The translations under genes and the position numbers were made by a program. DNA of 64,000 bases from Pilibacter termitis (GTDB taxonomy: Bacteria; Bacillota; Bacilli; Lactobacillales; Streptococcaceae), in assembly GCF_900167335.1 (NCBI RefSeq), contig NZ_FUXI01000012.1, positions 1 through 64,000 of the forward strand, written 5' to 3'. The first letter of the stretch is position 1. Every line of letters begins with the position of its first letter. The notes beneath the pieces were generated by a model that had not been told where the DNA came from, did no database searches, and saw only the letters and a program-made list of their open reading frames with translations. Of this stretch, positions 3,463 to 59,572 are shown one piece after another.

Positions 3463-3656
3463 TGTGATTCCCCCTATTTTCTTTCAATTTACTCTCCGAT
3501 TTTTCATACTGGTTCAACACTAAAAACTAAGATAAAAACCATGTTTTAGAGTTGAATCAATAGAAGAATAAACATAGTATAAATCCATAAAATGGATTTT
3601 AAAATTTGAAAAATTTTTCGTTCTGAAAAATCCTTCAAATATCCTTCCTTTTTTTC

Positions 3657-3903
3657 TAGCTACGAGAGGCTGAAGTCTGGCAACTGCTCTCAATGTCGTT
3701 CGTAACTTCGTTACGAATAAATAAACGACATGGTTCGCTGTTGCAGACTTCAAAACGCCACTCTTCGCCTTCCTTTTTTCTAGCTACGAGAGGCTGAAGT
3801 CTGGCAACTGCTCTCAATGTCGTTCGTAACTTCGTTACGAATAAATAAACGACATGGTTCGCTGTTGCAGACTTCAAAACGCCACTCTTCGCCTTCCTTT
3901 TTT
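3657..3903 (+). repeat. Family T hairpin repeat, two head-to-tail copies with a 124-bp period
   Basis: The units at 3657-3780 and 3781-3903 are identical over 123 bases. Each begins TAGCTACGAGAGGC and ends CTCTTCGCCTTCC plus a T run. Each folds back on itself: GAAGTCTG near the start pairs with CAGACTTC near the end, and an inner arm around AATGTCGTT pairs with AACGACAT. Related but diverged copies occur at 19258, 32674, 33497, 58175, 59044 and inside 59284-59560. No believable protein is encoded. The rest of the 3463-4039 gap is AT-rich and shows no gene. Confidence 0.85.
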
Positions 3904-10968: not shown

Positions 10969-11123
10969 GGGCACCTCTAAAAACTCCGGTTAAGCCAAAA
11001 TTAGCTAGTTTTTCGATTTTCGAGGAAATCGACGAAAGCTATGTGGTTCATAGGTTGAGGAGACTGACGAAGAAAATCGGAAAACTAGCAATTTTGGATA
11101 ATCGTGAGTTTTTAGAGGTGCCC
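10969..11123. mobile_element. Family M MITE-like element, full length 155 bp
   Basis: The termini GGGCACCTCTAAAAAC and its complement bound a strongly self-complementary body, with CTAGTTTTTCGATTTTC matched by a near-complement further in. TCTT flanks both sides (10965-10968 and 11124-11127) as a 4-bp target duplication. It has no coding capacity and lies one duplication plus one base from the mnmE stop codon. A copy of the same length in opposite orientation is at 17748-17902. Confidence 0.85.
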
Positions 11124-17747: not shown

Positions 17748-17902
17748 GGACACCTCTAAAAACTCACGCTTACCCAAAATTGCTAGTTTTCCGATTTTCT
17801 TCGTCAGTCTCCTCAACCTATGAATCACATAGCTTTCGTCGATTTCCTCGAAAATCGAAAAACTAGCTAATTTTGGCTTAACCGGAGTTTTTAGAGGTGC
17901 CC
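17748..17902. mobile_element. Family M MITE-like element, full length 155 bp
   Basis: It is an inverted copy of 10969-11123, with the same length and nearly the same sequence. Termini are GGACACCTCTAAAAAC and a matching complement. Flanks ATAT and ATAA agree in three of four bases, a decayed target duplication. No ORF of its own. It lies directly upstream of the DUF1033 gene. Confidence 0.85.
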
Positions 17903-18041: not shown

Positions 18042-19235
18042 TTATCTTGTTCCCCAACGTGTTGATTTTAGTGTACAAAGTGCATAAAATCTCACTGGTA
18101 ATAAAACTAAAACGTGAATAAAGCCGTAAATTACAAAAAGTAAAAATCCTAAATCCCTCGTCCTAAAAATACCGTATAGCGAACGAAGAACTGCAATCAA
18201 TGCTAGAACGATTAAATATTGAACGAAATGTCGAACATCTCCGTAATAAATCGTCTGGAATACCATTGCAAATAGTGAAACAACTAACATGAACGGCAAA
18301 ATAAATTGCATTAACAAATCATAAAGCATATACCAATGATGTCTGTGAGCAAATTTAATTGTCCAAAGCATTTCACGATAAAAACTTTTGTTCCATCTTA
18401 CTTGTTGTTTTACATATTGCCCTAGTGTTTCTGGTACAAACGTCTGCACTGTTGCGTGCTGATGAAACGCTACTTCATGCCCTTCTTTTAGCACTAAATT
18501 CGTCAAATGACGGTCATCACCATAAGTACAATTTTCACCTAAGAAATACTGTGAAACATACTCGTCTTTCACTTTGTTTACAATTTCAGTACGATACGCT
18601 GAAAATGGTCCAGAACAGCACATTACCACGTGAAAACGGCTTTGTGCCGCACGTTCTTGGTGGAATGCTGACCAGTAGCGATAGCTAATCAAGCGAGTGA
18701 GAAGATTGACTCCTTTGTTTTCCACTTGCACATCTCCTGTTACTGCACCAACTTTTTCGTCAACTAAACGCTGAATCAATTTTAAAATCGCATTTTTATC
18801 TTTCAATAGCGTATCTGAGTCAACTGTTACAATTATTTCACCTGTCGCTCTATCAAACCCTAGTTTTTGTGCATGACGTTTCCCTTTGTTTTGTTTTGGC
18901 AACAAAATTCGCACACGTTCGTCGTTTTCATACGCATTGTAAACTTTTTCGATTAATTCCTCTCTATTTTTAGAAAAGTCATCAACCACGATAATTTCTA
19001 ACTCTTCAAGTTTCTGCTTACAAATGCTGTCAATACAAGCCTTTAAAATACTCGGCTCTTCATTGTAGGCGGGGACGATTACCGATACGCTTGCCGTATG
19101 CCCTTGGTGGAATGATTTAAATTTCTCACCATGCTGTCTTCTGTTTTCACTATGGCAAATCACGAGCTGTATCAAAATATGCCCCAATGCCAAAATTCCA
19201 TAAACCAATAAAAAAATACTTAATAACGAGGTCAT
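18042..19235 (-). CDS. hasA: Hyaluronan synthase-like membrane glycosyltransferase (HasA type)
   Basis: A 397-residue GT2 enzyme with an N-terminal membrane helix, then VSVIVPAYNEE (50-60), NKGKRHAQ (116-123), the DSD nucleotide-sugar motif (139-141), NLLTRL, ERAAQS (194-199), CSGP, GDDRHLTN (239-246) and the processivity motif QQVRW (277-281). Four further membrane helices follow, and the protein ends LCTLKSTRWGTR. From memory, streptococcal HasA shares nearly all these blocks, including the last. It would polymerise UDP-GlcNAc and UDP-GlcA and export hyaluronan. A UDP-glucose dehydrogenase gene lies directly upstream in the same direction, which supports this over a chitin-type or poly-GlcNAc synthase. 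ATG with AAAGGAG upstream. Confidence 0.88.
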   Translation of the reverse strand: MTSLLSIFLLVYGILALGHILIQLVICHSENRRQHGEKFKSFHQGHTASVSVIVPAYNEEPSILKACIDSICKQKLEELEIIVVDDFSKNREELIEKVYNAYENDERVRILLPKQNKGKRHAQKLGFDRATGEIIVTVDSDTLLKDKNAILKLIQRLVDEKVGAVTGDVQVENKGVNLLTRLISYRYWSAFHQERAAQSRFHVVMCCSGPFSAYRTEIVNKVKDEYVSQYFLGENCTYGDDRHLTNLVLKEGHEVAFHQHATVQTFVPETLGQYVKQQVRWNKSFYREMLWTIKFAHRHHWYMLYDLLMQFILPFMLVVSLFAMVFQTIYYGDVRHFVQYLIVLALIAVLRSLYGIFRTRDLGFLLFVIYGFIHVLVLLPVRFYALCTLKSTRWGTR

Positions 19236-19257
19236 CGTTTTCTCCTTTGTCTAACTT

Positions 19258-19323
19258 TGTAGTGGTGAAGTCTGCAATTGTAGTTTCATCTTGCAGACTT
19301 CACAATGCACTACTCCGCTTTTT
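19258..19323. repeat. Short family T hairpin between hasB and hasA
   Basis: GAAGTCTGCA and TGCAGACTTC form a stem, with outer GTAGTG/CACTAC arms, ending CCGCTTTTTTT. It is an internally shortened relative of the repeat at 3657-3903. It fills most of the 91-base gap between the two genes, three bases from the hasB stop codon, and may affect the hasB:hasA expression ratio. Confidence 0.75.
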
Positions 19324-19326
19324 TTG

Positions 19327-20525: not shown

Positions 20526-20596
20526 GGGGACCTCTAAAAACTTACGCTTACCCAAAATTGCTAACTTTGGCTTAAACGGAGTTCTTAGGTGTACCC
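20526..20596. mobile_element. Family M element, short 71-bp class
   Basis: GGGGACCTCTAAAAAC at one end and GTGTACCC at the other, with the central body of the 155-bp form removed. It is the same length as the copy at 48700-48770. Flanks TGAA and TTAA match in three of four bases. It lies 30 bases upstream of the hasB start codon. Confidence 0.8.
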
Positions 20597-32673: not shown

Positions 32674-32833
32674 AGACTAAAAACCCTCCTAAACGCCCCT
32701 CTCGCTTTTCTGTGTCTAGCTGCGGAGGGGCAGGAGGTTGGTCGCTGTTCACAATGCCACCTGAAGCTCTGCTTCAGGCTAGTAAATGGCATAGCTCACT
32801 GCGACAACCTCCTAAACGCCCCTCTCGCTTTTC
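32674..32833. repeat. Family T repeat: one truncated and one full copy, head to tail
   Basis: The 3' end of one copy (CCTCCTAAACGCCCCTCTCGCTTTTCT, about 32684-32710) runs straight into a full copy starting TCTAGCTGCGGAGG at 32715 and ending GCTTTTC at 32833. The full copy folds through GGAGGTTGGTCGC/GCGACAACCTCC and an inner CTGAAGC/GCTTCAG stem. Its last base abuts the liaR stop codon. The rest of the 32504-32673 gap holds a short hairpin-rich stretch and the ktr promoter region. Confidence 0.75.
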
Positions 32834-33466
32834 TTATTCCACTAAGTGGTGTCGGAAGGCGTAGATTGCTGCTTGAGTGCGGTCTTCTACTTCTAGTTTA
32901 CTTAGAATATTCGATACGTGGGTTTTGACTGTTTTTAGTGTGATGTACAGTTCGTTAGCAATTTCTTGATTACTTCTTCCTTGAGCAATGAGTTGCAAGA
33001 CTTCGTTTTCTCGGTTGGTTAATTCCTCGTGTAATTCTGTGATGTGTTTTTGAGTCATTTTTTCAACCATTTTTTCTGTTACCGCAGCCTCTAAGACTTT
33101 TTCGCCTTTAAACGTTTTGCGAATTGCGTTAGCAATTTCTTGTGCAGAACTTGTTTTCAAAAGATAACCACTTGCCCCTGCCTCTAAAGCTGGATATACT
33201 TTTTCATCATCAATGAAACTTGTAACAATAATAATTTTTGCCTCTTTCCATTCAGACAATATTTTTTGCGTTGCCTCAATTCCGTCCATTACATCCATTA
33301 CCAAATCCATTAAAATCACGTCTGGTCGTAATTCAAGTGCTTTTTCATAGCCAATTTTTCCATTGTCTGCCTCAGCTACCACTTCAATATCTTCTTGTAT
33401 AGACAAATAACTTGAAACACCTAGACGTACCATTTCGTGATCATCTACTAATAATACTTTTATCAT
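32834..33466 (-). CDS. liaR: Response regulator LiaR/VraR (NarL/LuxR type)
   Basis: A 210-residue two-component regulator: receiver domain with the acidic pair in [10 protein letters not shown], the phosphoacceptor Asp in [14 protein letters not shown] and the conserved Lys in GYLLKTSS; LuxR-type helix-turn-helix at 150-200 ([40 protein letters not shown]). In Enterococcus and Streptococcus LiaR answers cell-envelope stress such as daptomycin or bacitracin. It follows liaF and liaS on the same strand, with a shortened family T repeat in the liaS-liaR gap and another repeat directly at its stop codon. Confidence 0.93.
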
Positions 33467-42251: not shown

Positions 42252-42356
42252 CTATTTGTAGTTATCCTTTTTTACAAGGACAACTACAAGTGATAGCAAC
42301 GCAACAACAAATGCACCAAAAGCAAGCATTAGTTGTAGCGTTTCATACACTGTCAT
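42252..42356 (-). CDS. Small hydrophobic toxin, holin-like toxin family (type I toxin-antitoxin)
   Basis: A 34-residue peptide, MTVYETLQLMLAFGAFVVALL followed by SLVVVLVKKDNYK: a short polar start, one membrane helix and a lysine-ended tail. This is the pattern of the small putative holin-like toxins widespread in Lactobacillales and related to the TxpA/BsrG type. AAAGGA lies 12 bases before the ATG at 42354-42356. An in-frame ATG 17 codons upstream (42405-42407), with its own AAGGA, gives an alternative 51-residue form. The stop codon abuts the shared terminator. Such peptides depolarise membranes when over-produced; the antisense RNA at 42165-42250 would hold it in check. Confidence 0.78.
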   Translation of the reverse strand: MTVYETLQLMLAFGAFVVALLSLVVVLVKKDNYK

Positions 42357-42472
42357 AGTATGAGCTTTTCCTTTCTGTAAGTTCTGAGTGTTAGAGATTT
42401 CTCCCATAGGCACCACATCCTTTCAGATTGTACTAAGCCACCGCCGATTAAACTTTCGTTCTTCTGCTAATC

Positions 42473-42501
42473 ATTTTAATGTAAAACTATTGATAAAACA
42501 A
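42473..42501 (-). promoter_or_regulatory. Promoter of the toxin mRNA
   Basis: TTGTTT (42496-42501), 17 bases, TAAAAT (42473-42478) on the minus strand. The predicted leader is about 110 bases before the short start codon. Confidence 0.65.
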
Positions 42502-48699: not shown

Positions 48700-48770
48700 G
48701 GATACCTCTAAAAACTCCGGTTAAGCCAAAACTAGCAATTTTGGGTAAGCGTGAGTTTTTAGAGGTACCC
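48700..48770. mobile_element. Family M element, 71-bp class, with TTTA target duplication
   Basis: GGATACCTCTAAAAAC at the left and GTTTTTAGAGGTACCC at the right. TTTA flanks both sides (48696-48699, 48771-48774). It lies between the convergent rpiR-type gene and ddl, 13 bases beyond the ddl stop codon. Confidence 0.88.
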
Positions 48771-58174: not shown

Positions 58175-58437
58175 TTTTTTACAGCTATGAGAGGTTGAAA
58201 TCTGGCGGTTGTTCATAGTTTCACCAACTTCAAAACGCACTTCTTCGCTTTTTTTGTCTAGCTACGTGGGGCAGAAGTCTGGTGGCTGTTCACAGTGTCG
58301 CTCGAAACTTCGTTTTGATGCTAGTCTTTCAAGAATCTTTGATTCTTAGAAAGACTGTATGCGAAACGAAGTGTAGCAGTATATGAACGACACGGTTCAC
58401 TGCCACAGACTTCTAACCACCCCGCTCGCTTTTCTTG
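58175..58437. repeat. Family T repeats, two diverged head-to-tail copies
   Basis: A shorter copy (about 58175-58255, AGCTATGAGAGGTTGAAATCTGG ...) is followed by a long copy from TCTAGCTACGTGGGG (58257) to CTCGCTTTTC (58435). The long copy carries an extra inner hairpin, TCTTTCAAGAATC with GATTCTTAGAAAGA, absent from other copies. The pair fills most of the gap between the coiled-coil gene and the next terminator. Confidence 0.75.
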
Positions 58438-58564: not shown

Positions 58565-59023
58565 TTATTGTTGATTGGTATTGCTTTGCACATTGTAGCG
58601 ATAGATTGGTGGCACCCAACCGTCATTGTCTGTCCCGTCAGGATTGACTACGTGTAAAATTTGTGCCTCATCAATTTTTTGTTGATTCATCGCCACTTCT
58701 TTCGCCTCTACACGTCCACGAGCTTTGACAAAAACAAGTTTTGTTTCCTTGTTCGTTTTCCAGTCTGCCCTCATGCTATCTGCTACTTTTGTTGACGGTG
58801 CGTAATAAACCTCAAAAGTATAAATATCCGAAACTCCATTACCACTTCCATTCTCTTTCAACAACTTGCGTACTTCTTTTAGTTCACGACTTTGTGTTGC
58901 CTGCGTTGAGTAACTTTGCTGTAAAGCAAGAAAACTCACAATCAACGTAGCCACTAAAAGAATAAGGCTAATAATTGATAAAAATTTCATTGTCTTTTGT
59001 TGTTTTTCATTTGAATGTTCCAT
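58565..59023 (-). CDS. Small membrane-anchored protein of unknown function
   Basis: 152 residues I do not recognise: a short basic start, one N-terminal membrane helix (FLSIISLILLVATLIVSFLAL), a Q/S-rich stalk (QQSYSTQATQSRELKEVRKLL) and a soluble outer part (YTFEVYYAPSTKVADSMRADWKTNKETKLVFVKARGRVEAKEV) ending Q/N-rich. No cysteine or sorting signal. The ATG has AAGGAG ten bases upstream. It stands alone between repeat-rich gaps. Confidence 0.65.
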   Translation of the reverse strand: MEHSNEKQQKTMKFLSIISLILLVATLIVSFLALQQSYSTQATQSRELKEVRKLLKENGSGNGVSDIYTFEVYYAPSTKVADSMRADWKTNKETKLVFVKARGRVEAKEVAMNQQKIDEAQILHVVNPDGTDNDGWVPPIYRYNVQSNTNQQ

Positions 59024-59043
59024 TTTAGGTAAGCTCCTTTTTT

Positions 59044-59160
59044 CTAGCTACATGGCGCTGAAGTCTGGCAACTGTTCTCAACCGCACTGGAAACTACGTT
59101 TCCAGCAAGTAAATGCTATGGTTCACTGTTGCAGACTTCAAAACGCACCATTTCGCTTTT
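59044..59160. repeat. Family T repeat, single copy
   Basis: It starts TCTAGCTACATGGCGCTGAAG and ends CACCATTTCGCTTTT, with GAAGTCTGGCAACTG paired to CACTGTTGCAGACTTC and an inner CTGGAAAC/GTTTCCAG stem. The rest of the gap to 59284 shows no gene. Confidence 0.8.
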
Positions 59161-59283
59161 ATTTTTTCTCAATTCAATTTGTCTATTCACTTTTAAGGAG
59201 ACCTATAACAAGCCTCATCAAACAGCTTACTAAAAAAAGGTGTTTTTTTCAAATAATTAGGATTTTCGACTTTTTGAGGATAA

Positions 59284-59560
59284 GGGGACCTCTAAAAACT
59301 CACGCTTATCCAAAATTGCTAGTTTTCCGATTTTCTTCGTCATCCTCCTCAACCTTGTCTAGCTACGAGGGTCAGGAGTTTGGTCGCTGTTCGCAACAGC
59401 ACTGGAAACTTCGTTTCCAGTAAATAAATGCTGTGACTCACTACGACAAACTCCTGTTCGCCCCTCTTCGCATTTCTATGAACCACATAGTTTTCGTCGG
59501 TTTCCTCGAAGATCAAAAAACTATCTAATTTTGACTTAAACGGAGTTTTTAGAGGTCCCC
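59284..59560. mobile_element. Composite element: 155-bp family M with a 122-bp family T inserted
   Basis: Family M ends GGGGACCTCTAAAAAC and GTTTTTAGAGGTCCCC enclose the usual body, interrupted after CTCCTCAACCT by a complete family T unit (59356-59477; TGTCTAGCTACGAGGG ... CTTCGCATTTCT). The family M sequence then resumes with ATGAACCACATAG, as in the uninterrupted copies. ATAA flanks both sides (59280-59283 and 59561-59564). Confidence 0.85.
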
Positions 59561-59572
59561 ATAATGTTTTTT

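Follow-up and report, generated by a model that had tools for sequence, protein, structure and literature searches.

A hairpin repeat nested at a fixed site of a miniature transposon in Pilibacter termitis, and its association with Shine-Dalgarno-like sequences

The spread of most small non-coding bacterial repeats is an unsolved problem. The BOX elements of Streptococcus pneumoniae and Streptococcus suis are assembled from modules in the arrangements boxA-boxB(n)-boxC and boxE-boxB-boxF, with predicted hairpins (PMC3049150; see also PMC10969869), and in the pneumococcal genome examined there no more than 17 modules were reported to occur on their own (PMC3049150). The Efa-1 repeats of Enterococcus faecalis, a related bacterium, are intergenic, ~163-170 bp long, with a double hairpin and a variable make-up (PMC2267715). 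Here we analyze a 64,000-nucleotide stretch of Pilibacter termitis DNA (contig NZ_FUXI01000012.1, positions 1 to 64,000; hereafter the window), in which an element of one small repeat family, M, is interrupted at positions 59284-59560 by a complete unit of another, T. We consider it probable that the two are independent small repeat families in a nested arrangement, M being a miniature inverted-repeat transposable element (MITE) and T a separate hairpin that colonizes Shine-Dalgarno-like sites.

The nested locus and two uninterrupted copies of M in the window have the following layout.

59280-59283, no strand: left target duplication of M, ATAA, read from the sequence; 4-bp pattern common to nearly all complete M copies
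59284-59355, plus strand: left half of M, 72 bp, with terminal inverted repeat GGGGACCTCTAAAAACTC; zero-gap match to uninterrupted copies
59344-59355, minus strand: Shine-Dalgarno-like GAGGAG, the minus strand reading AGGTTGAGGAGG, adjoining the T insertion point; read from the sequence and comparable to stand-alone T flanks
59356-59477, minus strand (the strand that is sense to the genes at stand-alone sites): T unit, 122 bp, covarying hairpin, 131 bits
59478-59560, plus strand: right half of M, 83 bp, terminating in ...GAGTTTTTAGAGGTCCCC; zero-gap match to uninterrupted copies
59561-59564, no strand: right target duplication of M, ATAA, read from the sequence
10969-11123, minus strand: uninterrupted M, 155 bp, with AAGA duplication
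17748-17902, plus strand: uninterrupted M, 155 bp, with imperfect ATAT/ATAA flanks

Direct reading of the locus bears out the original prediction of a 155-bp M element with ATAA duplications split by a 122-bp T unit. T is inserted after base 72 of M, the junctions reading CTCAACCT followed by TGTCTAGC on the left and CATTTCT followed by ATGAACC on the right, and its boundary is uncertain by 1-2 bp because CT is present on both sides. Alignment to the copies at 10969-11123 and 17748-17902 (~94-96% identity in the left half, ~89-90% in the right half) leaves neither gap nor overlap at the two T boundaries, so that M resumes, as had been claimed, exactly where uninterrupted copies continue.

The genome is available as a 2.79-Mb draft in 59 contigs, from which copies were extracted as stretches around search matches (L labels below). 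An M-end pattern gave 293 matches, compared with 6 for its reversed control, and a T-start pattern 396, compared with 0 for the control, corresponding to ~150 M elements and ~400 T units. The 72 complete M copies, which were picked partly by similarity and whose proportions are therefore not frequencies, comprise 43 empty copies, 22 with one T and 7 with 2-7 tandem T units. Empty M measures 155 bp (156 bp in one copy) and single-T M 269-294 bp, mostly 277-279 bp. All 29 filled copies share the same T insertion nucleotide and orientation, with the 4-bp duplications outside M; because filled copies lie within duplications of their own, M most likely carries T when it transposes. The proposed genome search thus found both empty and filled M sites, but the single event implied by the original prediction did not hold, since filled copies are common and some contain 2-7 T units. 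Many M-free sites also hold T, as single units or in tandem, in agreement with the description of T as a discrete unit. Several contigs terminate in or near T arrays or filled M (the starts of C58 and C23 and the ends of C38, C17 and C49 fall inside or beside them), and the assembly therefore probably undercounts long arrays.

The anatomy of M is that of a non-autonomous DNA transposon, a MITE of the IS5-transposase type, which transposes as a unit with or without cargo and makes 4-bp duplications. Perfect AT-rich 4-bp duplications (TTAA, ATAT, ATAA, TTTA and others) are present in nearly all of the 72 copies, and the terminal inverted repeats form 37-nt arms with 78% complementarity, the consensus ends being GGGCACCTCTAA...TTAGAGGTGCCC. 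M is predicted to fold into a long hairpin, placing the T site in an apical, weakly paired region. The genome also contains a broken DDE_Tnp_1 (PF01609, IS5-type) transposase (stretch L193, 1031-2070) whose left end, GGGGACCTCTAAAAACTT, resembles that of M. This gene is a probable relict of the parent insertion sequence of M, the link being probable rather than proven because a miniature M covers the other transposase end. T-free relatives of M that equal it in length and share its ends and its 4-bp duplications are found in three further genera of the family, and most of the M copies examined here are likewise T-free, both of which sustain the claim that M was there first. The contrary arrangement, in which M would in most genomes have contained T from the outset, was looked for and is unsupported given the empty copies and the T-free outgroup elements, which share only 68-72% identity with M and have a different central loop. 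M gave only short (19-33 bp) scattered matches, and T none, in the genus with the best representation in the family.

Comparison of M and T reveals that T entered M, was swapped between M copies or was lost many times, irrespective of M lineage. Four M copies at four loci have identical halves, two of them being empty and two holding different T subtypes, and identical T units are found in M halves several percent apart. A Mantel test finds no correlation between M and T distances (r 0.02, p 0.35), and the T subtypes do not cluster on the M tree but are spread over it. A single origin of filled M is rejected by this tree: constraining filled copies to one clade costs 100 log-likelihood units (approximately unbiased test, p 1.2e-7), and its starred branches force at least nine changes between empty and filled states, gain and loss being indistinguishable on an unrooted tree. 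With the histories of M and T decoupled, exchange of T at the M site is therefore frequent and recent; T could pass between M copies by recombination, and filled copies hence need not all stem from new transpositions. The right half of some filled copies (L055, L057, L061, L011, L021) starts with TGTC (or TGTT) in place of ATGA, letters with which T units also start.

Outside M, T is located mostly between co-directional genes, a short distance ahead of translation-start signals. Among 64 stand-alone T arrays, the genes on both sides share the T-sense strand in 49 of 62 cases and are both on the opposite strand in 1 of 62, and a Shine-Dalgarno-like motif occurs within 22 nt of the T end at 29 of 51 stand-alone sites, compared with 5% of random windows. 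The downstream start codon is usually 11-22 nt off and an upstream stop often only a few bases away, individual distances being approximate in that gene calls around T arrays are simple open reading frames. On the T-sense strand, the T site in M reads AGGTTGAGGAG, the kind of flank seen at stand-alone T, yet no gene start follows it. This association suggests that T may be targeted, in one polarity, to Shine-Dalgarno-like purine motifs. Under such a mechanism, T would colonize Shine-Dalgarno-like sites rich in purines, as a rule in the gaps between co-transcribed genes, its 3' end pointing toward GGAG; since the M hairpin loop holds one such site, T would lodge in it at a single nucleotide and with a single orientation. 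Single T units expand into tandem arrays, for some arrays partly via local duplication: the nearest relative of a T unit lies in the same array in 32% of cases, compared with 3.5% expected. An origin of arrays purely from local duplication was rejected, divergence within arrays (0.19) being close to that between arrays (0.22). Tandem T units are separated by 1-4-nt spacers (such as TTT, GTTT, AG) that tend to be alike within an array and to differ between arrays (L022, L024, L038, L039, L040).

The T family aligns with a conserved start, TGTCTAGC, and a conserved end, CGCTTTTCT, and its hairpin covaries. Changes on both sides affect 25 of 36 pairs, amounting to 192 such cells compared with 63 in shuffles, and 0 of 500 shuffles reach 192. 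Only 22 of the 2711 hairpin cells are G-U and 21 are A-C. Structural RNAs normally tolerate G-U far better than A-C. The equal rarity of the two makes the pairing constraint look strand-symmetric, a hint that DNA rather than RNA pairing may be constrained in T, as would fit a hairpin DNA intermediate. A search of Rfam returned no T match, either at the gathering threshold or at E<=1, which speaks against T being a known structured RNA.

A covariance model of T detected T-like elements, tandem in some cases, in two other families, represented by four genomes. Those in L196, L198, L200 and L202 (genomes G348 and G105) are GC-rich hairpins from a different Lactobacillales family, tandem in L196, and the unit in L200 begins where the preceding gene on its strand ends, at the stop codon. 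Neither M nor T was recovered when 19 relatives, most of them one per genus, were searched at the DNA level, and both were absent from the phages, plasmids and viral contigs searched. The exact T pattern had zero matches in 85k species genomes (its own genome perhaps excluded), and a literature search on M/T repeats in lactobacilli yielded nothing. We tentatively entertain, as a more specific and rather doubtful proposal, that T is a mobile hairpin inserting with fixed polarity beside Shine-Dalgarno-like (AGGAG) sequences, at gene starts or at their look-alike in M, and forming tandem arrays in operons of several Lactobacillales families.

Several observations weigh against independent colonization of M by T. 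The M tree is inferred from 155 columns and has mostly weak branches, and recombination between M copies would also scatter labels on it. The outgroup M elements differ in the loop, and the precedence of M at this exact site is therefore argued from the majority of copies and not from empty sites at orthologous positions. The flanks of T units and arrays give no consistent target duplication, the genome lacks a PF01797 (Y1) transposase in a search that detected 5 control genomes, and it lacks a PF00078 reverse transcriptase and a PF02371 (IS110) transposase, a trans-acting or lost enzyme being possible. Subtype T1 (10 copies), moreover, was found only inside M among sampled units, a pattern more easily explained by recombinational transfer from one M copy to another than by a new insertion on each occasion. 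This last point favors a less likely history in which T entered M once and the composite spread, with T types shuffled by recombination or gene conversion via the 72- and 83-bp flanks and precise losses giving some of the empty copies. Near-identical T1 units (0-2% apart) do occur in M halves ~8% different, a three-copy M clade shares the TGTC change at the right junction while T differs among its copies, and T is weakly correlated with the first 22 bp of the M right half (r 0.23, p 0.044, uncorrected). A single entry is nevertheless difficult to reconcile with the presence in M of five or more T subtypes, several of which have close stand-alone relatives, with the lack of correlation between T and the other M segments, and with the absence of diagnostic substitutions from filled M.

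Sense orientation between same-direction genes in 49 of 50 arrays, together with a strongly conserved structure, is also what would be expected were T a cis-acting regulatory RNA selected between operon genes, its proximity to Shine-Dalgarno sequences reflecting function and not targeting. We regard this as unlikely, because T occupies a like motif inside M with no gene start after it, and because G-U is no commoner than A-C, unlike in usual structural RNAs, and Rfam gave no match. Least probable, in our judgment, is that a single BOX-like composite, A-B(n)-C, comprises both M and T, with T as its internal module and stand-alone T arrays as its remnants. The 0-7 tandem T units between fixed flanks do resemble pneumococcal BOX (PMC3049150), but stand-alone T arrays carry no M remnants, have precise ends and occupy a distinct, sense-oriented and intercistronic context; M relatives in other genera are T-free, and T-like elements occur in other families where M was undetected. 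Two independent families, the one nested in the other, thus remains the reading we prefer.

The window contains further members of both families, as well as one feature unrelated to either.

3653-3898, minus strand: two tandem T units (3653-3774 and 3777-3898), mutually identical, without M; likely a recent local duplication
32713-32834, minus strand: T unit without M
58178-58435, minus strand: short T (58178-58254) and long T variant (58255-58435), without M, between co-directional genes
59041-59162, minus strand: stand-alone T, closely followed by AAGGAG and by the ATG that opens the gene at 58565-59023 (minus strand)
19248-19324, minus strand: short T variant, immediately followed by AAGGAG and then by the start of the gene at 18042-19235 (minus strand)
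20526-20596, plus strand: miniature M, 71 bp, two ends joined, centre missing
48701-48770, minus strand: miniature M, ~70 bp
42285-42480, minus strand: Rfam match to the Listeria small RNA rli28, 64.9 bits (gathering threshold 45), unrelated to M and T

M provides a natural assay for T, in that its single receiving site can be observed empty, with one unit or several, and refilled with different ones. Given their strong polarity and Shine-Dalgarno neighborhood, the ~400 T units probably affect many operon transcripts, and the symmetry of G-U and A-C offers a sequence-only route to asking whether it is DNA or RNA structure for which such palindromes are maintained.

Among known systems, T resembles the repetitive extragenic palindromic (REP) sequences and bacterial interspersed mosaic elements (BIME) that are mobilized by RAYT (Y1) transposases in consisting of hundreds of intergenic, hairpin-based palindromic units in arrays, but differs from them in having one orientation instead of alternating ones, in its length (122 bp compared with ~20-40 bp) and in its occurrence in a genome without a Y1 transposase. 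The EFAR repeats of Enterococcus faecalis, compared here with M and T by description, are reportedly also ~163-170-bp double-hairpin intergenic repeats, and we know of no nested Shine-Dalgarno-flanked unit in EFAR or Efa-1. Like BOX, the M/T system is small and modular, with outer modules that carry terminal inverted repeats and target duplications and an inner module of variable tandem number (PMC3049150). This likeness is one of layout, BOX sequences not having been directly compared, and full-length M or T had no match among relatives probably including streptococci. T differs from BOX modules in being abundant in its own right (~400 copies), mostly outside M and sense-oriented between genes. 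M, finally, shares with MITEs of the IS5 family its inverted terminal repeats, shortness, AT-rich 4-bp duplications and lack of coding capacity, and is set apart from them by the repeated uptake of an accessory unit at one fixed internal site.
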